55,089 bases of DNA from a virus: the IMG/VR virus record IMGVR_UViG_3300028388_002422, positions 1 through 55,089 of that record. One strand, given 5' to 3'. The first letter of the stretch is position 1. Every line of letters starts with the position of its first letter. The notes below the pieces were generated by a model. That model was not told where the DNA came from. It searched no databases and saw nothing but the letters and a program-made list of their open reading frames with translations. A program made the position numbers and the translations under genes. This document shows, piece by piece, positions 30,910 to 54,368 of the stretch.

Positions 30910-31127
30910 GCCTTGAAATAAATAATGTTATTTTAAAGATTGAAACTATACATAAAGATCTTGTTTTATTATATCAATTAAAAGCAATAGGTCGTAATCG
31001 TGCTGCGACTGATTTGTCGTTAAAGATTAATAATGATATGTTAGAAGCAGCTGTATTATTTGCTAATGTGACAAAAAACACATTGTCAGATGAAATTAAT
31101 AAACAGCCACAATTAAGATTAATTTAA
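30906..31127 (+). CDS. Small helical protein, last gene of the rightward block
   Basis: 73 residues from ATG 30906 after GGAGAG. Helical (LEINNVILKIETIHKDLVL, MLEAAVLFANVTKNTLSD). No family recognised. Overlaps the ligase stop by four bases. The opposed late operon ends within 60 bases of it. Confidence 0.55.
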   Translation: MSLEINNVILKIETIHKDLVLLYQLKAIGRNRAATDLSLKINNDMLEAAVLFANVTKNTLSDEINKQPQLRLI

Positions 31128-31155
31128 AGAAAAAAGACCCCCCCGGAGAGGGGCC
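31128..31155 (-). terminator. Rho-independent terminator of the leftward late operon
   Basis: On the minus strand GGCCCCTCTCCGGGG forms a GC stem, followed by TCTTTTTTC. It directly follows the last tail gene, before the end of the opposed early block. The plus strand has no T run there, so rightward transcripts may run on into the tail genes as antisense. Confidence 0.7.
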
Positions 31156-31185
31156 AAAGGGCGGACAACCTTATTTACAGAGCTG

Positions 31186-32649
31186 CTATACAACTACGCC
31201 TGTTGTTCTTCTATAAATGTTTAAAACTTCTGCTGAAGATAGAGCACGAGTCCAAAACGAAAAGTCATTATAATATCCTTCAAAAGTTGTACCGTTAGCA
31301 GAAGCTGGATCGCCAGTTGTTGTATCAATATTTATAAATGCTGTTGCAACATTCGGCGCGCCAGGTGTACCATCAGTCCAGTCTATGGTATAAGGGGTGC
31401 CACCACTATCACAAACATTGCTTCCATTCAAATAAAGAGTCACGCCTGCTATTGAATCGACGGTTAAACAAACATGATAAATCGTGCTTGTGCTACTTAT
31501 ATTTGGTGTACCGCTATTGTTTGTTATCATAGACGCGCCACCTGTACCTATCTCATATCCTAATCCATTAGTGTTGTGTGCTGTTATTACAACTCCTTTC
31601 CTTGCAGAACCATTCCAATCGACGGGTAAAAATGCAGCAATGACTTCTCTGCTAGCTACACTGTTATAGGATTTAACAAGTATAGAAAATGTAAAATCTT
31701 GTACTTTCCAATCATTCGGCAGACTTCTATACATATATTGGCCAGTACCGACAGCTCTATTAGAATAATCTGCTCCTAAGCTAATGCTTGGATAATCAGC
31801 AGGTACAGCTTTGTTTGTAAAATCATAACCTTTTATTGCTGGCCAAGTTACAACAACTTGAGAAGGCAAACTAAATTGATTATATGTTTGACAAGTTACG
31901 TCGTCTGTATAAATTGATGTAACGCCTTTCCGATGTGCCTCAGTTAAGCTTGCTACTTCTGTGTCACTTAAAGCATGATCAACTACAGCTATAAAACCAG
32001 TAAGTGCATTACCACTAGCTATATTAGACGGTGTTGAATCAGTCGTTCCATGTATTGTGTCTTCGTATGATGTATCGCGAGTTTCATCTTGAAATGTACT
32101 GGCCCAAGCGCTGTTACCAGTTCCAGGATTATAATTATAAACTAGATCTCCATTTATCCATGTTTTCATCCTAAATTCATTTACAAGATTACAAGTATTT
32201 ATCCACATAGCACCAAGTCCTGTAACACGGTCGCCAGGTGTTGACATTAGAAGACTTGTCGGCGAAGCACCAGCTTTCGCAGCCCATTGTACCCTAAAAG
32301 ATCCTGAACTGGGATAAAGTCTAAATCTTTCTCTTGCGCCTTTTTGTGACAACTCCATAACATAGCCACTATCTGCTGTGTTAACATTAGTGCAAAGAAT
32401 TATTGAACCGCTGGTTTGTCCACTTAAAATATCAGTTAGCCCTATTCCGCATTTTACATAGCCTGAACCATTTTGAACTATAGACGCAAAATTTTCTGAA
32501 CAAATAGAGCGAGAAGTAGATATGTTAGTACATGTACCAAAAGTAGTGCTGCCGCTTACCCAATCTTTAACATTGCCACTAGTTGTAGCGTCATCTAATG
32601 GAACTATTGCCCCTGCACCTACGCTAAATAATGCATTAATTAAATAGCC
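31186..32649 (-). CDS. C-terminal part of tail-tip protein 2, behind an in-frame TAG
   Basis: 487 codons in frame with, and directly after, the TAG of the upstream tail gene. The first ATG is only at 32358; the preceding 97 codons have no ATG, GTG or TTG, yet match the first copy (VPLDDATTSGNVKDW against GLDDVTASGSAFDY). The rest holds two LamG-like (jelly-roll) units around YPSSGSFRVQWAAK and LPNDWKVQDFTFSILV, as in the C-terminus of the 36201-41294 protein. It is best viewed as the distal, receptor-facing part of one 1671-residue protein made by readthrough, or as part of a gene just broken by a nonsense change. Confidence 0.75.
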   Translation of the reverse strand, partial: GYLINALFSVGAGAIVPLDDATTSGNVKDWVSGSTTFGTCTNISTSRSICSENFASIVQNGSGYVKCGIGLTDILSGQTSGSIILCTNVNTADSGYVMELSQKGARERFRLYPSSGSFRVQWAAKAGASPTSLLMSTPGDRVTGLGAMWINTCNLVNEFRMKTWINGDLVYNYNPGTGNSAWASTFQDETRDTSYEDTIHGTTDSTPSNIASGNALTGFIAVVDHALSDTEVASLTEAHRKGVTSIYTDDVTCQTYNQFSLPSQVVVTWPAIKGYDFTNKAVPADYPSISLGADYSNRAVGTGQYMYRSLPNDWKVQDFTFSILVKSYNSVASREVIAAFLPVDWNGSARKGVVITAHNTNGLGYEIGTGGASMITNNSGTPNISSTSTIYHVCLTVDSIAGVTLYLNGSNVCDSGGTPYTIDWTDGTPGAPNVATAFINIDTTTGDPASANGTTFEGYYNDFSFWTRALSSAEVLNIYRRTTGVVV

Positions 32650-35600
32650 CTAGCCGCGATCAAATTCACCAGTACCTTTTCTTCCTCTACCCATAATAGC
32701 ACTTAATTGATATATATCAACAGCAAAGGTGCCAAGAGTATCAGTTCCATCACTCTGTTGCTGCGCTAAAGTATATGTGTAAGCAGTAGATGCTGATACA
32801 GAATATGTACCTAATACAGCTTGAGTTGATGTGTTAACTATGTCTATTTCATATGCTTCTACATCTTCATTTATTGGTCCGCCAACATTATCAGTGAGAT
32901 TATTATCCCCGCCTAAACTTCCACCTTTTCTTGTTCTGCGGGTCCATGATATATCAATATCATCACCGTCTAATACAACGTCTATTTGAATCGGACTATA
33001 TGGCAATAATTGTTGCCCAGATAGATATACTTCGTTTCTTTGAACATCAGCTATTGTTTCATAGCTTTTTAGCGTTTTGTAATAAACAGTTGTATTCAGC
33101 TGGTTTATTTGAAGTGAATGGCGAGTAATATAAGCAGGGTCAAGTTTGATTAAATAATCTTTTTCTTCATGTGAATCAATATATACATTTGTGCCACGTC
33201 TTCCACGTAATAAATTACTTAATTGATATATTGTTTGTGTTCCTGATGAAATGAGTGTGACAGTAGCAGCATTTAATAATTCCCATCTTCCTTGTCGTCC
33301 ATAAGCAAAAGCATTTATTGTTGGGTCAGCCTCTATTGCTGCTTTTGTGGAACTAGCTATTGTTTTATTATTGTATGCTTGTACAACGATAGTTTCTACG
33401 TCGTCCCAATTTTCCCATGTTGTCGAATTACTTGCTTCTTGGACAAGACCAACAAATGGTTGATCAGCTTGCGAGTCAATTGGAAAATAATTTACGTCAT
33501 CAAAAGAATAAAAATGTGTTACTTGAGGGAAGTTATCGCCATAAATGTAACTTGTTAAATATGGTCCTGGGTGGTCAAGATCAATGTCTTGTAATAATGT
33601 AACATCAATTAATTCAGTTCTTATTGGTAAAGAATAAGCTATATTGCTTAAAAAGGCTTCATTACCAAAAGCAGTAGCATTTGTCGTAGAAAATTCTGCT
33701 GCGTCAGTTATTCCTTTACATTTTAGTATCCAATTAACGCCACGATCAATACTAACAATTCTTACTCTTTCATTTACGCCATTTACTGGTAATTCTATTA
33801 TGTCTGTTGGTTCAAGATACGAATAAATAATTGGTAAATAAAATTCATAAACAGTTGTGTCAACCATTTGATTATGTAATCTTGCTACTGTATCTACTGC
33901 TTGTTGATCAGATAGAAGTAGAGCAAGTTCAAATGAACTTTTTGATAAAGCATCTCCAGTAGCATAATAAGATTGAGCAATACTTCTTGTTAATATATTC
34001 TCCAATGAAATGTAATTCATTTCATAAATTTTTGGTACAGACAAATGGTCTGGTTTAACTATTTTTACTAATGGATAGTTACTTGTTGGTCCAGACGGTT
34101 CAGTAACGTCTAAGTGTTCGGGATTTATTGTTACGTCAGTATTGCCTCCTCTTAATTTAAATTTTATTTTGTTATCACTTTGGTAACCATCTGCATTAGC
34201 AAATAATAAAAGAGCTTCAATTGCTGCTCTTGCGCTATATGTTCTATTTTTTACGTAGCCATAAATATATGATGATGTGAGACCTGTAGTATCAATTTCA
34301 TTTGTTGTTAATCCAACTTTTTGACATAGGTCAGATACTATATCACTTACTGCAATTTGGCTAGTTGTTACATATGCTGTTACTTCTCGCATTAAATATT
34401 CATAATCAGGAGCTTTATATTCCGTTAATGAGCACCAAAATGAATTTCTGCCAGGATAGTAAACAGCTGGTCTACCATGTAAACCATTCGCTGGATATTT
34501 TTTGACAGCATGGCTGTATATATTTATTCCAAAAACAGAGTCTAACGCAAGCATAAAATATACTTCGTTTGAATTTATGCTATAATCAAATACACCATCA
34601 CCATCAAAAGTGCTCCAAGTAAGGTTATTCCCAGAATCATAACCTTCTCTGTATGCATTAAAGTGATTAATAATGCTGCCATCATCTGGATTCATCATTA
34701 ATACACCAACAGTGTATCCAGAAGCAACAGGCGCTGTGCATTTGTATCCAAACCAAACTTCATTTGTTTCTTTTATATATACGCCACGTCTTACACCAAA
34801 AGCAAAATCTGCTGAAGTTACACCAAAATTAAGATAATCTGGAAAATAATTTTCATCGGCGAATGGATGAGATAGACGGAATATATTTCCGTTCGCGTCA
34901 AATTTAAAAAGCTCATAATCTATTTGATTAGAATCTTTTCCAACAAAACACCACTCAGCTTCAAACCAATTGACACAAGTAGCGGTTCTTGCTAATACAC
35001 TACTATATAAGTTGCTTGTCCCGGCATTGGTGTTTATGTTATAGGCTGTATTTACCTCTGGTAAAACTAAGCCTGTGTTTCCTTTACTTAAAACCCAAAA
35101 ACTGACGCTGAGGTTTCTAACACCACAAGGAACGTGAGAAGCTGATTGTTCGCCTAAAAAAACACCACCATCAGCTTGACTCCATGATGTTGTTCCTGTA
35201 TGCTTTCCAGAAGGATATTCAATACGATGTACTGTTGCTGTAAAGCCAGTATCTCTTTCACTTATATAAAAAGCATCAGGATAAAGTTCATAACTAATAC
35301 CAGTTAAAATATCAAAGCGGCTGTCCCATGTTGAATTTAATATAGTATCAGTTGCTGTTTCATTGATAATTGAAACATTACGTGAGCCCATGTCCGTCAT
35401 GTAAACTGGCTCAGTTGCCACGGCAGGAGTAAAGTTATGAGTTACAGTTGTTAAAAAAACATTTTCACTTGGATGACGGAGAACAGAAACAGCATATATA
35501 TTTTCAACACTACCACCATAATAAATACCTAGATCAATATCTGAGCTTGTATTAGATACTTCTGTGGACCAAAATTCTGCTTCAATATTTGGTAGTCTAT

Positions 35601-36201
35601 TTGCATAATCATTCAATAATAAAGATTCAAAAACAATCACTGTTTGATTTTTATAAGATGGACAATTGCCTTCGCCGACATCTGCTTCAATCAAAGAATC
35701 AATTTCATTTGTGGACGGCGTGTGAACCGTGAAATTAACGCCATCGCCATCAACAGCAGTTTGTGACTCTCCGGATTGATCTAAAACCAATTTTCCATTT
35801 AACCACATTCTGCGTGGTTGCGCTTCAAACATACCAAAGGAAACAGCAAATGTTTGGTAGTATTCATATCTTGTATATGTTTGCTTGGGCGCACCGCCAC
35901 CCTTGCCACCGCCTGATGATGTTTCTATTTTTACTTCTTTTACTTCATCTAACCATATAGGCACGCCTCTAATTCTACCACCGCCCCATAGCTCTGGAAT
36001 GTCCGCGCCTTCTGGCGTTCCAGCATACGTTGAATCATTTAATCTTGGCCCTTCAATATGTAAACCTTTCGGCTGGTCTAATAAACCGCCAATAACAGAG
36101 CCAGCCATCCAGCCCCATGTAGACGCAGCTACGCCAAGAAAAGTTCCACCAATTGACCCACCAATTGTAGCACCGAGAGCAGATATTGCAATTGTTGCCA
36201 T
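32650..36201 (-). CDS. Tail-tip / host-specificity protein 2, ends at an in-frame TAG
   Basis: 1183 residues to TAG 32652-32650. Paralogue of the 36201-41294 gene over its full length: glycine-rich hydrophobic N-terminus (GATIGGSIGGTFLGVAASTWGWMAGSVI), EGPRLNDSTY, IPELWGGGRIRG, GGGKGGG and TFAVSFG near 30-130, then HPGPYLTSYIYGDNFP and LLRGRRGTNVYID, and GGSLGGDNNLTDNVGG near 1100. Family: large baseplate-hub / tail-tip proteins downstream of the NlpC-P60 gene, which open the tail tube and hold receptor-binding parts. The stop falls where the paralogue has Trp. One-base overlap (TAATG) with the upstream gene. Confidence 0.82.
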   Translation of the reverse strand: MATIAISALGATIGGSIGGTFLGVAASTWGWMAGSVIGGLLDQPKGLHIEGPRLNDSTYAGTPEGADIPELWGGGRIRGVPIWLDEVKEVKIETSSGGGKGGGAPKQTYTRYEYYQTFAVSFGMFEAQPRRMWLNGKLVLDQSGESQTAVDGDGVNFTVHTPSTNEIDSLIEADVGEGNCPSYKNQTVIVFESLLLNDYANRLPNIEAEFWSTEVSNTSSDIDLGIYYGGSVENIYAVSVLRHPSENVFLTTVTHNFTPAVATEPVYMTDMGSRNVSIINETATDTILNSTWDSRFDILTGISYELYPDAFYISERDTGFTATVHRIEYPSGKHTGTTSWSQADGGVFLGEQSASHVPCGVRNLSVSFWVLSKGNTGLVLPEVNTAYNINTNAGTSNLYSSVLARTATCVNWFEAEWCFVGKDSNQIDYELFKFDANGNIFRLSHPFADENYFPDYLNFGVTSADFAFGVRRGVYIKETNEVWFGYKCTAPVASGYTVGVLMMNPDDGSIINHFNAYREGYDSGNNLTWSTFDGDGVFDYSINSNEVYFMLALDSVFGINIYSHAVKKYPANGLHGRPAVYYPGRNSFWCSLTEYKAPDYEYLMREVTAYVTTSQIAVSDIVSDLCQKVGLTTNEIDTTGLTSSYIYGYVKNRTYSARAAIEALLLFANADGYQSDNKIKFKLRGGNTDVTINPEHLDVTEPSGPTSNYPLVKIVKPDHLSVPKIYEMNYISLENILTRSIAQSYYATGDALSKSSFELALLLSDQQAVDTVARLHNQMVDTTVYEFYLPIIYSYLEPTDIIELPVNGVNERVRIVSIDRGVNWILKCKGITDAAEFSTTNATAFGNEAFLSNIAYSLPIRTELIDVTLLQDIDLDHPGPYLTSYIYGDNFPQVTHFYSFDDVNYFPIDSQADQPFVGLVQEASNSTTWENWDDVETIVVQAYNNKTIASSTKAAIEADPTINAFAYGRQGRWELLNAATVTLISSGTQTIYQLSNLLRGRRGTNVYIDSHEEKDYLIKLDPAYITRHSLQINQLNTTVYYKTLKSYETIADVQRNEVYLSGQQLLPYSPIQIDVVLDGDDIDISWTRRTRKGGSLGGDNNLTDNVGGPINEDVEAYEIDIVNTSTQAVLGTYSVSASTAYTYTLAQQQSDGTDTLGTFAVDIYQLSAIMGRGRKGTGEFDRG

Positions 36202-39200
36202 TAAATTTCCCCAAACATTGGTTCAGTCAATGTTTCAATATCTGTCAAAGATAATTCTTTTGACCAAATTAAAATTGATTGCAAATAAGAATAAGCTGAT
36301 GAAGATGGCGAGGTAGTTGAATAGAATGTTGCACCATTATTTGTTAAATGCCAATGCATATTACATGTATCTGGTACGCCAGAAGCTGCATCTGTCCAAT
36401 CAATAGTGTGCGTTGCGCCTGACGACGTTATTACAACGACATTATCAACATAAACTTTGAATCCATTTGTTGCGGAACATGTTATTGCAATATGATATGT
36501 TCTAAAAGCAGTAAATGAACGAGTAGTCCCTTCACTATAGTCAGTCCATGTACCTGTACCGGTGCCAATACGTAATGTTAAACCATTTGTTGTGTCATAA
36601 AATAGATGAATACCTTTTTTAACTGCGCCGTCCCAACCTTTTGGTTCAACACTAAATAAATAATGTCCATTATTGAAGTTTGCCCAGTTATCAGTAGTAA
36701 ATGCCCAATGATAACTTATATCTTGTACTTTCCATGTTGACGGTATATTTTCAAAGCCAAATGCGCAAAGATCTGGGAAGCCACTAATACTTACACTTCT
36801 TCTAGTAAATAAGCAAAGTCCATGTTGACTGCCGCTAACTAATAATACTTTTAAATCTGGACCAAATTCGGAATTTGTTAATAATCCAGTATATGTTGTA
36901 ACATCATTGTCTACTGGATGAAACGCTAGTAAATTATCTGGATCATAATTTTTAATCGCTGTACGCATTGCAGTAAAAAAATTATTACCAATTGTTGCTA
37001 AATTTGAATGACTAAATGAAGCACTTGTACTTATACCAACTACACCAATACTTATATTACTTGGCGCTTCATTTTGGGTATTATCCATATCATTCCCAAT
37101 CATATCGTCATAAGCTGCGTTGTTTGTTTGAGTTTGATATGTTGAAGCATATGTGCTATGACCTGTGTTATAAGCTACGGAGTTTGTTTGTATTCCAAAA
37201 TTGAATGATCTTGTTGCATACTCGCCAACAAGATTAAACCAAATAGATATAATTTGAAATCTACTTCTATAACCGGACGGAGATTCACCAGTTAAGCTCA
37301 TACTAATGCCTGTTCCAACTGAGCCCGATTCAGGCGCATGAAACACTGAAATAGACGTTCCTCTATGTCGTATTTGGAATCTATAGCTTGCTGCACCTTG
37401 GGTGCACTCTAATATATACCCAGTATTTGGAGTAGAAGTTTTTTGATCAAATATATATGCAAATGCAATATGTGCTTGAGTTTTACCTGTTGTTAAATCA
37501 CGAATTGTACGATCTAAATTAAGACCATCACCGGCGGCTGCGCCTGGGTTTTGCATCGTCCCACGGCCATCACCAAATATTGTGCTTGCATTTACATTTG
37601 TATATGTTCCATAAGAATTTCCACTAATATAATCAAAAGCACTGCCACTGGCTGTAACGTCATCTAGGCCAAGTAGCATGTCTATTTCAGGCAGTTCAAT
37701 AAATTCGTTTAATAAAGTTCCCCATCCTTTATCTATTATGCTGCATTCTTCCCATCCTCTGCCTACAACTGCTGAATTTTGATAAACACAATATTTTAAC
37801 TTACCATAAGAATCAGCGCCGTCTGTTGTTTGTTGAGCATCAGTATATATAAGAGCAGTTGTTGACGATTGGAATGAATTTAGAAGTATATCTCCAATGG
37901 TTTTTATATCAATATCATAACTTTCAGAGTCTTCAGATAAACTGCCGCCTACATTATCAATTACACCACTATCACCACCGAGTGACCCGCCTTTTCTGGT
38001 TCGTCTTGTCCAAGTTAAGTTATAATCTCCAGCGTCTTCAGTTGCAGACAATTGTATTGGGCTATATGGTTTTAATGGATAGCCTAATATTACATGCTCT
38101 TCTTCTACTGCTTCTGATAAATACGTTCCTTTTGGCACTATTTTATAATAAATAGTTTGCTCATATTGTGAATTAAGCAAGACATGTCTTACAATACTTC
38201 CATTTGAAGTAAGTACAACAACAAGATCCCATGAATCATGGGTATCTATAAAATTATTAGTTCCTCTGCGGCCACGTAATAAACCAGAGATTTGATAAAT
38301 TTTTGGATTAGCTCGGAGCTGTGTTGCAGTTTCAAAATTTATATATTCCCATCTATTATTTTTGCCATAAGCTATTGAATTAATAGTCGGGTCTGCTTCA
38401 ATAGCTGCTTTTGTTGAACTAGATAATGTAACGTCAGAATTATAAAAAGTAATAGTTATTGTATTGTTATCATCCCAATCTTCCCATGCGGCGCCACTAA
38501 TATTTGATGATGATTCAACATAACCAACGTCTGGTTGCTCGGTTATTGCACTTACTAAATTATAATTAACATTATCAAATGAATAATAAATTGAACTTGG
38601 AGTAAAATTACTACTATATGAATATGCCGTTAAATAAGGTCCTGGGTGATCTTTATCAATATCGCGCAATAATGGCGAGTCAAAAATTAGAAGGTAGGTG
38701 TTAACACCTAAAGAAATATTTGATAAAAATTCTTCAGAACCAGCAGCAGATGTATTTGATATATAATTTTCTGCTGCGTCTAATACAGCCTCACAATTCA
38801 TTATCCAATTCGTTCCTCGTGTAATCTTTGTTAATCTTACACGATGATTGATACCATCAATTGGTATTTCTATTACGTCAGTTGGCTCAAGATTAAAATA
38901 TTTTACAGGTAATTTGAAACTATAAACAATTGATTCAATTATTTGTTGATGCAGTTCTGCTGCTAAATCTGTCGCATCTTGGTCATAAAGAGCAACACTA
39001 ATTTCAATTGTTTTCTTTCCATAAGATCTCGAAACAGCGGTATATGACTGAGCTATAGCGATTGTATAATTGTTATCAGCAGAACGATATTTAATTTCAA
39101 ATTGCCGCGGGATTTCCAATTCCATTGGAATATTAACTGTTGTTTGTTCTTCTTTTTGTATTGGACCAGATAATTCAACACAATTAATTTCATCAGCAGA

Positions 39201-41294
39201 AATTGTTGCTGCGACGCTACCACCTCTTATTTTATACTCAATTTTATTGTCGCCATGATACCCATCTGCATTAGCTGTTGATAGTAGTAATTCTATGTCA
39301 CTTCTGCCTGAGTGCCTTGTAGCATGAACAAAACCTGCTACTTCTTCCGAACCTAAGCCTGAAACATCATATTCTGTTGGGTCGATGCCAGATCTTTCCA
39401 TAATATCAGCAATAATTGATGCAATAGTTACACTTGTCCTTTGTATCTCGGTAAGATAAATTTCCCATATTGATCCAGTGTTCGCATCATAAGTACTTGA
39501 TGCATCATCAAGACAGATAAGTGTATTTCTTGGAGGAAAAGGTGCATAATTAGCAGCTTGGTTAGTACTGCCTGGGAGACTAAGTGAATTATATATTGTT
39601 GCCTTTGGGCCATCTAGATCTATTTTTATAGCTGACTTCACATTACTTGGGTTACATACAGACCATAGCGATCTTGTACGATGATCGTATGACCACTGCT
39701 CAGTATATGCTGGAATGAAACCGTCTACGCCTAATGAAAACCATTTTTCTATTACTCCTGTATCAATATTTACTGCTATTACAAAGTCGTAATCTCCTCC
39801 AGATGCGGTGTATACTTTCCACCATAAAAGTTTATTTTCTTCGTCACAGAAACCAACTTCACTGTCTGCAATTAAATCTGTTGTTCCATTTAAGTCCAAA
39901 ACTTCACGCTTAAAGTCTGGGCTATCTTCAACAATATCAGAAGTTATTAAAGATGCTGTTATGTCAAGAATTTGAAAATATTGTAATTTATAAGAATTAG
40001 TAGGATGGTTTAATATTGTACCAAACTTATCATCAAGAAAATTAATTGGTGTAAAAGTCTCAACAATGTCTCCGCTATAATTGGCTAAAACACTTAATGG
40101 GCCAGTGCCTAAACTCAAAGCATCTTGAGACAGGCCTAATGTACCCGTACCAAAAGTTGGCATAGTGTCAACTCTTGTGCCAAGATTTCTTTGACCAACC
40201 CAAATTCTATTTTGGCTAGGAGCAGATAAGCTAGCACCTCCACTGTAGCCATTAACAACATGTTGTCTAAGTAATTTACCAGAAGGCCAGTCAAAAACTC
40301 TTATATCAGCGTTGTTATTCGTTGTATCTCTTTGTGAGAAATAAACTTGATTTTGACTAAATTGGGGCTGTGGAAAATCTGCATCTTGGGTCGCTGGAAC
40401 AAAACGTAAGTACCAAACTTCGTGCCAACCATAATTACCAAGATAAATTTGTGTTTTTGATTCTAAATCTAAAAAAATTAAAGGGCTTGATACATAATTT
40501 GAACTTCCGGCGGGACACCATGCAACTTTACGATCAGTAGGATGATAACAAAATTCTTGTGTTCCACCGCTCCAGATAGGGCCAGTATCACCACCAATAT
40601 CTTGCCAAGTTCCTAAAAATGTTTCTTCTGTAGATACAACACTTGTTGAAGTAGTTTGAAATTCGCATTCAACAACTGGTATTCTATTACTAAATCTTTC
40701 TGATAGATTCAAATCATCAAAAACAATAACAGTGTGACCTTTATACGAAGGACAATTGCCCTCACCGACATCTTGTTCAATTAGTGAGTCAATAGATTGA
40801 TTTCCAAAAGGATAATATGTGAAACTTATATCAATATCAGAAAGAGTTCCAGCTCCTGACACATCATAAACCAATTCTTGATTTAACCAGATACGTCTTG
40901 GATTATCAGCTGGTACTTCGCCAAAACTTACCGCGAAAGTTTGAAAATATGTATATGTTGTTTGTGTACTTTCGCTACCACCACCACCTTTGCCGCCGCC
41001 AGAAGATGTTACTGTTTTCTTCTCACGAACAGGTTTTACCCAAATTGGTTTACCGCTGAGTCTGTCACCGCCCCATAGTATAGGTAAATCAGAGCCTTCA
41101 ACTTGCCCTGAAAATGTAGAATCATTTAGCCGTGGGCCTTCATAGTCAAAGCCTCCTCCACCACCACTAAATAGCATACTACCTACTGCGGACCCAATCA
41201 TCCATCCCCACGACGCAGCGGTGACTCCTAAAAATGTACCACCAATAGCGCCACCAACAAGACTGCCCGCAGCCGCAACAGCTATTACTGCCAT
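36201..41294 (-). CDS. Tail-tip / host-specificity protein 1, with C-terminal LamG-like domains
   Basis: 1697 residues. N-terminus: Gly/Ala-rich (AAAGSLVGGAIGGTFLGVTAA), EGPRLNDSTF, LWGGDRLSGKPIWV, GGGKGGGG, TFAVSFGEVP. A central hub region carries HPGPYLTAYSYSSNF and LLRGRRGTNNFIDTH, then an FN3-like segment (YSPIQLSATEDAGDYNLTWTRR). Residues about 1250-1690 are two LamG-like jelly rolls. A Trp (DKGWGTLL, near 1210) stands where copy 2 has a stop. Functions: central tail fibre / receptor contact and tail opening. Directly after the NlpC-P60 gene. Confidence 0.85.
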   Translation of the reverse strand: MAVIAVAAAGSLVGGAIGGTFLGVTAASWGWMIGSAVGSMLFSGGGGGFDYEGPRLNDSTFSGQVEGSDLPILWGGDRLSGKPIWVKPVREKKTVTSSGGGKGGGGSESTQTTYTYFQTFAVSFGEVPADNPRRIWLNQELVYDVSGAGTLSDIDISFTYYPFGNQSIDSLIEQDVGEGNCPSYKGHTVIVFDDLNLSERFSNRIPVVECEFQTTSTSVVSTEETFLGTWQDIGGDTGPIWSGGTQEFCYHPTDRKVAWCPAGSSNYVSSPLIFLDLESKTQIYLGNYGWHEVWYLRFVPATQDADFPQPQFSQNQVYFSQRDTTNNNADIRVFDWPSGKLLRQHVVNGYSGGASLSAPSQNRIWVGQRNLGTRVDTMPTFGTGTLGLSQDALSLGTGPLSVLANYSGDIVETFTPINFLDDKFGTILNHPTNSYKLQYFQILDITASLITSDIVEDSPDFKREVLDLNGTTDLIADSEVGFCDEENKLLWWKVYTASGGDYDFVIAVNIDTGVIEKWFSLGVDGFIPAYTEQWSYDHRTRSLWSVCNPSNVKSAIKIDLDGPKATIYNSLSLPGSTNQAANYAPFPPRNTLICLDDASSTYDANTGSIWEIYLTEIQRTSVTIASIIADIMERSGIDPTEYDVSGLGSEEVAGFVHATRHSGRSDIELLLSTANADGYHGDNKIEYKIRGGSVAATISADEINCVELSGPIQKEEQTTVNIPMELEIPRQFEIKYRSADNNYTIAIAQSYTAVSRSYGKKTIEISVALYDQDATDLAAELHQQIIESIVYSFKLPVKYFNLEPTDVIEIPIDGINHRVRLTKITRGTNWIMNCEAVLDAAENYISNTSAAGSEEFLSNISLGVNTYLLIFDSPLLRDIDKDHPGPYLTAYSYSSNFTPSSIYYSFDNVNYNLVSAITEQPDVGYVESSSNISGAAWEDWDDNNTITITFYNSDVTLSSSTKAAIEADPTINSIAYGKNNRWEYINFETATQLRANPKIYQISGLLRGRRGTNNFIDTHDSWDLVVVLTSNGSIVRHVLLNSQYEQTIYYKIVPKGTYLSEAVEEEHVILGYPLKPYSPIQLSATEDAGDYNLTWTRRTRKGGSLGGDSGVIDNVGGSLSEDSESYDIDIKTIGDILLNSFQSSTTALIYTDAQQTTDGADSYGKLKYCVYQNSAVVGRGWEECSIIDKGWGTLLNEFIELPEIDMLLGLDDVTASGSAFDYISGNSYGTYTNVNASTIFGDGRGTMQNPGAAAGDGLNLDRTIRDLTTGKTQAHIAFAYIFDQKTSTPNTGYILECTQGAASYRFQIRHRGTSISVFHAPESGSVGTGISMSLTGESPSGYRSRFQIISIWFNLVGEYATRSFNFGIQTNSVAYNTGHSTYASTYQTQTNNAAYDDMIGNDMDNTQNEAPSNISIGVVGISTSASFSHSNLATIGNNFFTAMRTAIKNYDPDNLLAFHPVDNDVTTYTGLLTNSEFGPDLKVLLVSGSQHGLCLFTRRSVSISGFPDLCAFGFENIPSTWKVQDISYHWAFTTDNWANFNNGHYLFSVEPKGWDGAVKKGIHLFYDTTNGLTLRIGTGTGTWTDYSEGTTRSFTAFRTYHIAITCSATNGFKVYVDNVVVITSSGATHTIDWTDAASGVPDTCNMHWHLTNNGATFYSTTSPSSSAYSYLQSILIWSKELSLTDIETLTEPMFGEI

Positions 41295-41296
41295 TA

Positions 41297-41719
41297 CTAA
41301 TCCTCTATATTTAAATAGTCAAAAACACCACGTAGACGTTTTTGCCATCTTTTATCAAATCTTGTTTTTACAACATTTTTTTCAGGTTCAAATGCATGAA
41401 TAAAAAAATCATTGCCTAAAGATATTCCAACATGTTGAGGAATACGTCCATAAGCAAAAAGTAATATATTTCCTTTTGTAAATTTATTATTTACAAATGG
41501 CACTCTTTTTAAGTGTCTATCAATTTTTAATTGTAATGCTTTTTGTGGATCCATGCTATAAGTTGTATCATCAATATAATTATTCGTGTCTGCGTTAAGT
41601 GACTTGCCAATACAATAAACTAATCCTATACAATCTACACCATGTTTTGATCGTCCTTGATGAGCAAATGGCACACCTAACCAGTCAAAAGATTCATTGA
41701 TTATTTCATCTCTAGTCAT
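41297..41719 (-). CDS. NlpC/P60 tail-assembly peptidase
   Basis: 140 residues. Catalytic Cys30 in HGVDCIGLV, His in PQHVGISLG (about 96), and a third polar residue in HAF further on: the NlpC/P60 triad. In phages with DUF2460 and DUF2163 tails this protein is part of the tail tip and may cut peptidoglycan during entry. Four-base overlap with the DUF2163 gene. Confidence 0.88.
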   Translation of the reverse strand: MTRDEIINESFDWLGVPFAHQGRSKHGVDCIGLVYCIGKSLNADTNNYIDDTTYSMDPQKALQLKIDRHLKRVPFVNNKFTKGNILLFAYGRIPQHVGISLGNDFFIHAFEPEKNVVKTRFDKRWQKRLRGVFDYLNIED

Positions 41720-43554
41720 GTTGCTTTGTCCGCTGGTGCCGCTATTCTATCTATATTAGGCAGTTCTGGCTCGCCACCATAATTTATTACATTATTGAAC
41801 TTTACTCTGCAGTCTCCAGTATATGGCGAGCCTTTTACATCGCCGGGCATTTTTAAAATATGATTACAACCAGCAGTAACAGTAAATGTATCACCAACAC
41901 TTATAGGATAAGGTGGTTTTTGTCTCAATATCATTTGTCCATTTGTAACTTGAGACTGCTTTATATCATTTGTATAACCACTATTATTACCAGTAACCCA
42001 AGTTAACACACCATATGTAAACCACTCAGCAGCATATCCTGTTATATCTGTCTGGAATGAATAGTCACTTGTTACGACAGTGACTTCACCTGCTTGTTTT
42101 AAAGCTTTTTCTGTCGTCCATTCTAGCCCTGACGCTTCTGAAACAGTATTACCAACTGTTGTCGGCCATACCGGTTCTGCTGGTGTTATATCATCAATTG
42201 ATGCACCATATCTTATTGAAACCTCTTCTGCTGTTAAACCAAAATCATATAATGCTACTTCGTCAATTCTTCCATCAATATATAAAGGAGTCGAACCACC
42301 ATTTGGATCTCTCCTACCAATATTAAAATCACAAGCGTCATCTGGCGCAACTAAATGTAAGTCTAATGGTGTCGTCGAACTTGCAATTGTTGCTGCTGAT
42401 CCGTTTATATAAATTATGGGAACATTTAATCTAGTGGAACCATCATAGACAATAACAATATGATAAGTTGTTCCAGTTAAAACACTATTTGTTGCTGTTG
42501 TCCATGAACCGTCACTTACTGCGAGAGACAAGTGTCTAAATCTTTGATAAAATGTTATGCTTTGATCAGAAGAATCATAATGAATGGCCCAACCACGTGT
42601 ATCAGTATCTGTTTGCGTACTAGCTTGATCTTTTGAAACAATTACGCCACTACCATCTAAATTAAGGACCACTTCAACAGAGGCAAGAGTATGAAAAAAA
42701 TTCTCAATAGAAACAGCGCTTGCAGCTGCTAAATTTAAATATTGTGAACTAGCTGCATTAAAATCAATACAAGTATCTGCGTCATTTGTTATAAGACCGG
42801 TTGTACTGAAGGTTGGGCTATTTACAGCAGTTAAATTTATAATACCTTTTCTATCAACAGCTGTTGGGCCAGATGATTCGCCTAGACGCCAATGATTTAA
42901 TGGTCCGCCATTACTATCAACTGCGTCTATATATTCTACTATTTCTGTATTTGATACGCCTGGATTTGTGCATCTATATCTATAGCTATTTAATGTTGTG
43001 GGTTCAACCAGATCATTTAATGAATATGCTGTATTTTCTTGCCAAGTACTTGTCGTAAATATAACGCCACAATTACTGTCGCCTAGTTCCCAGCGGCAAT
43101 ATCTAGAATATTTATCACCAAATTCTTGCGAAAGCATTGTTGTCAATGATCTAAACTCTGCGGTGAAATTTGTTTTTTGAACAGTTATTTCACCAATGTA
43201 GCCATAATCAAGTTTTAAATCACCCCAAGATAAATCTCTAGGTGAAACTAAAAAAATTTGGACTTGTGCGCCTTTATATATACCGGCTAATAAATCTTCT
43301 TCTGTTATTGAATCGTCATCAATAATACCAACAACATCCATATTGTCAACATTTAATCCTTCTTTTTGATCAATAGCCGTACGTTGATAACCACCTGATG
43401 ACTTATATAAAAGTCCATCATATGTAAATTCATCAGGCCAATCTGTGAAGCCAAATATAACACCGTCAGTTCTTTCAATCCGCCAACACGTTGCTATAAT
43501 CGGAGCTCCACTTTCTATCTCAGTTAGTAAGTTAGCACTAATTTCTTTTGTCAT
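41716..43554 (-). CDS. DUF2163 / BR0599-type tail protein with an inserted LamG domain
   Basis: 612 residues, about twice the usual length. Residues 1-190 match the N-terminal part (GAPIIATCWRIERTDG, GFTDWPDEFTYDG, YCRWELGDSNCGV). Residues about 215-445 are a LamG-like insert (NHWRLGESSGPTAVDRKG, YIDGRIDEVALYDFGLT). The BR0599 end resumes after it (GDTFTVTAGCNHILKMPGD, CRVKFNNVINYGGEPELPN). So a carbohydrate-binding-like domain is set into a tail-tip protein, probably projecting from the tip. Overlaps both neighbours by four bases. Confidence 0.85.
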   Translation of the reverse strand: MTKEISANLLTEIESGAPIIATCWRIERTDGVIFGFTDWPDEFTYDGLLYKSSGGYQRTAIDQKEGLNVDNMDVVGIIDDDSITEEDLLAGIYKGAQVQIFLVSPRDLSWGDLKLDYGYIGEITVQKTNFTAEFRSLTTMLSQEFGDKYSRYCRWELGDSNCGVIFTTSTWQENTAYSLNDLVEPTTLNSYRYRCTNPGVSNTEIVEYIDAVDSNGGPLNHWRLGESSGPTAVDRKGIINLTAVNSPTFSTTGLITNDADTCIDFNAASSQYLNLAAASAVSIENFFHTLASVEVVLNLDGSGVIVSKDQASTQTDTDTRGWAIHYDSSDQSITFYQRFRHLSLAVSDGSWTTATNSVLTGTTYHIVIVYDGSTRLNVPIIYINGSAATIASSTTPLDLHLVAPDDACDFNIGRRDPNGGSTPLYIDGRIDEVALYDFGLTAEEVSIRYGASIDDITPAEPVWPTTVGNTVSEASGLEWTTEKALKQAGEVTVVTSDYSFQTDITGYAAEWFTYGVLTWVTGNNSGYTNDIKQSQVTNGQMILRQKPPYPISVGDTFTVTAGCNHILKMPGDVKGSPYTGDCRVKFNNVINYGGEPELPNIDRIAAPADKAT

Positions 43555-44195
43555 ATTCTTATCTCAATAACACTTATATTTGTATTACTAATTAGAGGTC
43601 CAGTTAAAGACATAGGCAAACGGTCATTGTCAAAACGACAAGGAACATGAAAATGAAAACCGCACGTTACAGTATCTGCCTCTGTCAAAGCTGAATTAAA
43701 CGTAATTATACCTGTTGTATAATCAATTGTATAGTCTGTTGTTTCAACTTTAGGAGAACCATTAATTGCTAAAACTACTGTTCCACTAATTGGTTTTTTT
43801 ATTGCTCTAGTAGTTACTTGTCCACCTTCGTTATATTGCTTAAATATTTGTTGTGTTGTTTCACCTCCAACTGCTGATGTGATTAAAGTTATATCCAAAT
43901 TTGAAACTGTTTGATCCATATCTTCAGTTGATTTCCAATCAAATGGATCTTTATAACGAAAGCCATATGTTTTACCTTTCATGGCATGAAAAAATTTAAG
44001 CAAAGCGTAGCCTTGAGCCGGAGTTTTTACGCCATATTGAACTTCATAATAATGACGGCCATATGGCCATGCTTGAATACGTTGCTCGTAGCCACTTTGT
44101 GCACTTTGAACAAAAGTTAAAAAGGTTGGCCCACCAGTACTTCCATTAGAAATTTCCGTAGGAAATATAGCAGCTTCTATAAATGGCGCACTCAT
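43551..44195 (-). CDS. DUF2460 distal tail protein
   Basis: 214 residues. Signature AIFPTEISNGSTGGPTFLTFV then YEQRIQAWPYGRHYYEVQYG, and FHAMKGKTYGFRYKDPFDW, then GTVVLAINGSPK and DYTTGIITFN. This family occurs in siphovirus tails and gene-transfer agents just before DUF2163, as here, and forms the distal tail / hub adaptor. Four-base overlaps on both sides. Confidence 0.88.
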   Translation of the reverse strand: MSAPFIEAAIFPTEISNGSTGGPTFLTFVQSAQSGYEQRIQAWPYGRHYYEVQYGVKTPAQGYALLKFFHAMKGKTYGFRYKDPFDWKSTEDMDQTVSNLDITLITSAVGGETTQQIFKQYNEGGQVTTRAIKKPISGTVVLAINGSPKVETTDYTIDYTTGIITFNSALTEADTVTCGFHFHVPCRFDNDRLPMSLTGPLISNTNISVIEIRI

Positions 44196-53003: not shown

Positions 53004-54368
53004 TTAACATTCTGGAAGTTTAGCTGAACGATCGTCATTTTCAGGTGTAACTGTACGATCTTGTATTGTAATCTCAAATGTTCTACATTGAGGGGTAACA
53101 ATTCCAACAACTAATTTAAAACCAACTGTTGAAATAGATTTAATAGCAGATAAATCTAAACCTGCTTCGTAAATTGCTCCAGCTATACTTTGAATAGCTG
53201 CTTGATGGGCTAATGTTGTTTGCACATTTAAATTACTTTGGACATTTGTATTTATTGTTTTATTGACGCCAAACGCAATTAATCCTTCAATAGTTATTGT
53301 TGCATTAGTTACAAAATCATTCTGAAGTGCATAAGTAATTGCACTTTCTATCACATTAGCACCAGTAAAAGTCAGTGCTGCTTGATGATTAAGAACAGTT
53401 ACGGCATAAAGATTAGCAATGTTTAATGCTTCAATACCTTGTACAATACCTATATTTAAAGAGCCTTCAAATGTAACAGGTCCAGTAATTTTTTGACTAT
53501 CTGTTACAAAAGCTTCATTTATTTCAAAATTAATAGCCGCAACAATAGAAGCTATATTTCCACTAGCCGCCGATTGCTGTGAATCTAATGATAAACCAGT
53601 TTCATAAATTGCATTCGCAGAAGATATCGATGAGAGCTGTTTAGACAGCGTAGTAGCAGTATTTAATATTGTTGTTACTGAACTCAGTATTGATAATTGA
53701 GTTCCAATAGTTAAATTACCTTCTAATGTAACAGGGCCGTTAATTACTTCCCCAACAATACCATAGGTTTGTTGAAGTGCAACCGCGACCTCCGCTGACA
53801 GCTCAAGCGTCCGGCTCGTAAGTAGTCCCATTTGCGCTGCGAGCAACAGAGTTGACTGAATATATGACTGCGCAGCATGGTCGTCAGTCAGCGATTGACC
53901 AAGCGTTACTATAGCGTCGTACAACGCCTGTGATTCCAGCAAATCAGAGAGCGTTAGAGAAAGCGTTGTTTCCGGCTGATAGTCTACCGTCTTACCGTGT
54001 CCATCGTCTAACTGCTGCGAAAGCGTTGTACCAGCTTCGAGGATAGTGTCCTTGCTTGGCGCAACGTCCAGTGAGGCACCGAGGGAGAAGCTCGCTTCTA
54101 TCGCCGCACTCAGCGTCGTAAACGCATCGCCAGCCGCAGGGAACACCGCCGTGTCGTTAACGCCATCGGACCAGACGAAATAGGACTTATAGGCTGTGCC
54201 TTCGGTCAGGTTTACCGCGTCGAACGTATACGGTTGCGTCGTACTGGCAGGCTTGCTTGACGCATACGCCGCAGCGCTGCCCGTGCCATCCTGCCCAGCC
54301 TTAACCTGCGCGACACTCGGCGCTGCGGTGGCGCTGGGTTGGACAACGACGTAAAGCAGATCAGCCAT
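53004..54368 (-). CDS. Repetitive structural protein that begins in the middle of an FN3-like domain
   Basis: 454 residues if begun at ATG 54368, which has no good ribosome site. Residues about 5-90 (LLYVVVQPSATAAPSVAQV ... TYKSYFVW-like end) are the second half of an FN3-like domain whose first half ends the upstream frame. The rest is repeats of helical units with the pattern TTL-x-x-Q-x(5)-A (such as TTLSQQLDDGHG, TTLSKQLSSISS, LNHQAALTFTG), perhaps a fibrous stalk. It may be made only as a fusion with the upstream gene by a frame change at TTC-TGA. Confidence 0.65.
   Translation of the reverse strand: MADLLYVVVQPSATAAPSVAQVKAGQDGTGSAAAYASSKPASTTQPYTFDAVNLTEGTAYKSYFVWSDGVNDTAVFPAAGDAFTTLSAAIEASFSLGASLDVAPSKDTILEAGTTLSQQLDDGHGKTVDYQPETTLSLTLSDLLESQALYDAIVTLGQSLTDDHAAQSYIQSTLLLAAQMGLLTSRTLELSAEVAVALQQTYGIVGEVINGPVTLEGNLTIGTQLSILSSVTTILNTATTLSKQLSSISSANAIYETGLSLDSQQSAASGNIASIVAAINFEINEAFVTDSQKITGPVTFEGSLNIGIVQGIEALNIANLYAVTVLNHQAALTFTGANVIESAITYALQNDFVTNATITIEGLIAFGVNKTINTNVQSNLNVQTTLAHQAAIQSIAGAIYEAGLDLSAIKSISTVGFKLVVGIVTPQCRTFEITIQDRTVTPENDDRSAKLPEC

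Follow-up and report, generated by a model that had tools for sequence, protein, structure and literature searches.

Does the amber codon at 32650–32652 (−) close a complete phage protein, or does it cut short one whose frame and homology run on behind it? The codon lies in an IMG/VR virus record, a single metagenomic contig whose 55,089 nucleotides were analysed as a whole (the window). Head genes stand at its left end and the remaining head genes and the tail genes at its right end, on the same strand, an order pointing to a genome of about 55 kb that is circularly permuted and nearly complete. Within the tail genes, the start of gene 2 (32650–36201 (−), ATG to TAG, 1,183 aa) overlaps the stop of its paralogue, gene 1 (36201–41294 (−), 1,697 aa), in the sequence TAATG. 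The codons at its end are GAA TTT GAT CGC GGC TAG, then GGC TAT TTA. A sequence-only reading had described this end as EFDRG-TAG with the same frame open for 487 codons beyond, no ATG, GTG or TTG in the first 97 of them, a tryptophan at the same place in the paralogue, and a read-through product (1,671 residues) close to the length of gene 1. Re-checking the sequence agreed on each point and placed the tryptophan at residue 1191 of gene 1 (IIDKG-W-GTLLN; codon 37722–37724 (−)). The in-frame TAG with homology continuing behind it is therefore confirmed.

The gene family defines what the TAG leaves intact. Both genes match PHROG 4271 and the Pfam families Phage-tail_3 and Rcc01698_C, and their cores are 37% identical to each other (660 bits); in gene 2 the PF13550 and PF23666 matches are above cut-off. 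A family profile (A1) matched the RcGTA megatron (6tba) at E = 1.8e-166 over residues 1–1298 of 1304 and the megatron of roseophage R4C (8gtc) at E = 1.2e-133, reaching residue 1438 of 1447, and gene 2 alone matched 6tba at E = 1.8e-33. Next to gene 1 lie an RcGTA g14-like NlpC/P60 tail peptidase (41297–41719 (−); PF00877, E = 7e-13), a baseplate hub protein like phiJL001 Gp84 and RcGTA g13 (41716–43554 (−); PF09931, PF09356 and PF13385) and an RcGTA g12-like DUF2460 tail protein (43551–44195 (−); PF09343, E = 5e-54). By core homology to solved megatrons and by this tail-module order, genes 1 and 2 are assigned to the megatrons of the RcGTA Rcc01698 (g15) kind. In the head–tail region, a 454-aa protein (53004–54368 (−)) had no match in PHROGs or Pfam.

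Judged by alignment, the TAG of gene 2 is at the canonical C-terminus of this family. The match to phrog_4271 (E = 1.9e-136) runs to profile position 1305 of 1309 and gene 2 residue 1178 of 1183; when nine megatrons were aligned, those of most other phages ended no more than about 10 residues from the TAG, and the majority of the relatives surveyed in IMG/VR and among phages stop at its position. The stops that close all megatron frames surveyed are TAA (42), TGA (42) and TAG (8). Because the solved megatrons and most relatives end here, the TAG product is a complete core and what follows an appendage.

This appendage, the extension, spans 31186–32649 (−), 487 codons closed by a second TAG at 31186–31188, and includes the region DWVSGSTTFGTCTNISTSR. 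It is homologous to C-termini that are fused to the core elsewhere. Aligned to the last 500 residues of gene 1, it is 25% identical over 503 columns (E = 4e-32), a likeness far beyond chance that bears out the claimed homology past the stop, and it is 35.5% identical (E about 1e-75) to the extension of a related phage, L014, described below. The LamG domain that had been read in it was recovered as a Laminin_G_3 (ConA-like lectin) match at extension residues 304–475 (31225–31740 (−); PF13385, E = 7.1e-8), with 33.2 bits against a gathering cut-off of 27.6. The extensions of gene 1 and L014 gave no Pfam match, a PDB profile search with the gene 2 extension found no match, and a structure prediction for it (pLDDT 29.5) was set aside and not used as evidence. 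From the LamG match and the tail-tip position, we infer a putative role in receptor binding. The hub protein has a LamG domain too, inserted at residues 311–446 and without a match in L014, and this phage thus carries such domains in more than one of its tail proteins. A GC-rich inverted repeat with a T-run (31126–31160 (−)) directly follows the second stop and probably terminates the tail operon, facing a convergent ligase gene; a similar sequence also follows the L014 megatron.

Could the extension instead be a gene of its own, translated alone from an internal start? Among 76 distinct relatives surveyed, 22 have at least 150 open in-frame codons after the megatron stop, and many relatives do carry a separate gene directly 3′ of the megatron, as such a reading would expect: 20 of the 22 have a start codon no more than 16 codons past the stop, often with a Shine–Dalgarno sequence, and in the other two, L048 and L081, where the start comes at 43 and 74 codons, the frame is spurious and the DNA GC-rich. 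Gene 2 differs from all 22. Its first in-frame start, an ATG at codon 98 (32356–32358 (−)), has no Shine–Dalgarno sequence upstream and lies inside the region homologous to fused extensions; the codons before it already align with them (28 of 95 identical to L014 and 30 of 87 to gene 1), and in both of those proteins the extension is fused. We therefore rejected a separate downstream gene, which we regard as very improbable.

Relatives that carry the same junction were sought as well. A DNA-level search of phage records and IMG/VR pattern searches from gene 2 alone found no relatives, no other IMG/VR contig carried the site in a search with a degenerate DNA pattern over the TAG, and a genome-contig search for a prophage or host lead returned only a distant Limnohabitans megatron. 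One phage, assembled from two metagenomes as IMGVR_UViG_3300017598_000035 (L013) and 3300017613_000438 (L014), belongs to the same phage group: its polymerase, ligase and DUF2460 protein (L014) are 74%, 65% and 65% identical to those of the window, the tail order is common to both, and the adjoining replication genes are shared with L014. It has a homologous extension and the same junction but differs in having one megatron without a duplicate, a single gene of 1,720 aa with TGG exactly at the codon that is TAG in gene 2 and the extension fused. The question whether relatives have TAG or a sense codon here, raised by the sequence-only reading, is thus answered, for this nearest relative, with a sense codon. 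No separate tail-fibre gene was seen after the L014 megatron. The core of that megatron (L014:6932–12094) carries an insertion (ALWVANTAYSLTDVVVGSTNDKRRYICTTAG...) before the TRRTRKGGSLGG motif that is absent from the proteins of the window. The NlpC/P60 peptidases (41297–41719 (−) and L014:6504–6932) are only 39% identical, against 65% for the neighbouring DUF2460 proteins; the peptidase diverges along with the megatron, as if by co-evolution or joint exchange. Two further relatives, L015 (54 kb, polymerase 68% identical) and L016, likewise carry LamG domains in fused extensions, with no detectable homology to that of gene 2. Taken with L013/L014, they indicate that a C-terminal megatron extension is normal in this phage group. 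None of the relatives surveyed combined a stop at this site with an extension of the gene 2 type.

How long the TAG has stood can be gauged from the state of the extension, which shows no damage and has not evolved faster than expected. In a three-way comparison, lineage-specific changes in the extension numbered 102 for gene 1, 67 for gene 2 and 51 for L014, and in the core 142, 166 and 125, respectively. When neutral drift of 487 codons was simulated, the frame stayed free of stops with a probability of 8.5% at 0.05 substitutions per site, falling to 1% at 0.1; with occasional indels it was 2.7% at 0.03. If untranslated, the extension could have tolerated only about 0.03–0.06 neutral substitutions per site. 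Its lack of decay thus implies that the TAG is young or that the extension is still translated, and a nonsense change, if that is what happened, would have to be recent. The change likely ran from TGG to TAG, to judge from the tryptophan in gene 1 and L014. In the core tree gene 2 falls outside gene 1 plus L014 (support 87), so that an ancestral tryptophan is not proven and an older TAG is formally possible.

We put the probability at roughly 60% that a recent nonsense change has stripped the receptor-binding extension from one of two megatron paralogues. Several lines point this way: TGG with a fused extension at exactly this codon in L013/L014 and tryptophan in gene 1; a TAG product that ends at the normal megatron terminus (6tba, 8gtc, phrog_4271 and most relatives); an extension that is neither damaged nor accelerated; and the outcome of the searches for recoding and readthrough signals given below. 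Against it, it takes some luck for a random mutation to put a stop precisely where core and extension meet, and translation of the extension would predict its undamaged state equally well. Of the 177 nonsense changes that the extension could undergo, 2 fall at the border; counting the linker only, it is 2 of 11. The position argument is weak by itself, as only about 11 linker changes would leave a complete core. An assembly error or minority base, the true phage or the bulk of its population having a sense codon, would fit the single contig, the lack of the site in any other IMG/VR contig and the TGG in both L013/L014 contigs. We hold it to be improbable, since a stop visibly interrupts no other gene of the 55 kb, the site is outside any homopolymer and a random error is unlikely to hit the exact junction codon. 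A different meaning of TAG is a scarcely credible explanation. Glutamine is established as its reading in some gut phages (PMC9523058), but a code 15-like recoding in phage or host would be expected to leave in-frame TAGs in many genes. TAG closes 4 of the 41 open reading frames checked, and the three besides the megatron would gain only 0, 17 and 11 residues; with TAG read as sense, no other recognised gene in the window is substantially extended at its C-terminus, and the megatron alone gains a long homologous part. The only tRNA found in the window is Leu(UAA), as had been noted, and none has the CUA anticodon of a suppressor. Genome-wide recoding was rejected on these grounds.

The remaining alternative is amber readthrough, programmed or host-dependent, which would yield mostly core and a minor share of core plus LamG extension, and so a second receptor-binding domain on a fraction of tail tips. 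Coding homology does continue past the stop in the same frame, and 97 codons go by without a restart signal, which sets gene 2 apart from all 22 relatives; the stop is exactly at the natural C-terminus of the family, the extension is long, intact and not accelerated, and minor extended tail proteins made by frameshifting are known, for example SPP1 gp17.1* (PMC6316719). The stop is not conserved, however: the only relative with an extension of the gene 2 type has a sense codon. The 153 nt beginning at the TAG form a less stable fold than shuffled sequence does (z = +1.2), so a stimulatory structure is lacking along with a suppressor tRNA in the window, although neither would be needed if the host suppresses amber codons. 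No precedent was found in the megatron family, and with three megatrons per virion, readthrough at background level would presumably give very few long copies. Of the two readings that had been offered from the sequence, the recent nonsense change is thus favoured, and readthrough, for which nothing specific was found, is kept as an unlikely one. A sense codon in relatives was half of what had been named as evidence against the original proposal, and that half was found, in a relative from two independent metagenomes.

Under the favoured reading of a recent nonsense change, this siphophage would build the trimeric core of its tail tip from two tandem megatrons, and the receptor-binding part in this phage group would be a LamG-bearing extension fused to the megatron C-terminus. 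A single-base change at the junction tryptophan codon of gene 2 would halt translation at the normal C-terminus of the family, so that gene 2 would yield a complete core without a receptor-binding extension while gene 1 keeps one, the long gene 2 product being made no more often than background or amber suppression by the host allows. The direct consequence would be a tandem pair, one megatron with and one (mostly) without a receptor-binding-type extension. We would then be seeing a host-range module switched off in one gene of a tandem tail-tip pair, and the megatron core would be separable from its fused extension. If the amber stop is maintained instead, a dsDNA phage would be controlling a tail-tip receptor-binding domain by a stop-readthrough switch, and host range would depend on amber suppression by the host. 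We consider it doubtful that a dsDNA siphophage exploits amber readthrough precisely where the core of a duplicated megatron meets its extension, equipping a minor fraction of its tips with a lectin-type receptor-binding domain in a share set by host suppression.

Such a switch would be a dsDNA-phage counterpart of the Q-beta A1 protein, in which a core protein with a C-terminal domain beyond its stop is a minor virion copy (PMC12469967). Gene 2 has the same layout of core, stop and further domain, but A1 derives from the coat protein of an RNA phage and its readthrough is proven, whereas that of a dsDNA tail protein is here only putative; among the open-access papers searched, none described a dsDNA phage with a tail-tip protein made by stop readthrough. 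The tail protein pair gp17.1/gp17.1* of SPP1 resembles gene 2 in a C-terminal extension with a surface-binding-type domain and differs in that the extended form is made by a +1 frameshift at CCCUAA (PMC6316719). Caulobacter phage CcrBL9 (MH588546) has two adjacent megatron-family genes, like the tandem pair of the window; both of them, however, end at the canonical stop, and its fibre-like proteins are separate genes. RcGTA Rcc01698/g15 (6tba, 6teh) and the R4C megatron (8gtc) belong to the same family as genes 1 and 2 across the full core and share the hub, NlpC/P60 and DUF2460 neighbours. In both systems the megatron is trimeric, with three copies per baseplate, and its C-terminal domain (985–1304 in RcGTA) binds tail fibres (PMC7296036, PMC10276861). 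The window differs in its two tandem megatrons, with an extension fused in gene 1 and a LamG-bearing one behind an amber stop in gene 2, whereas the fibres of RcGTA and R4C are separate proteins. Under either reading of the TAG, this comparison suggests that RcGTA-like baseplate fibres have been replaced in this phage group by C-terminal LamG-type extensions of the megatron.
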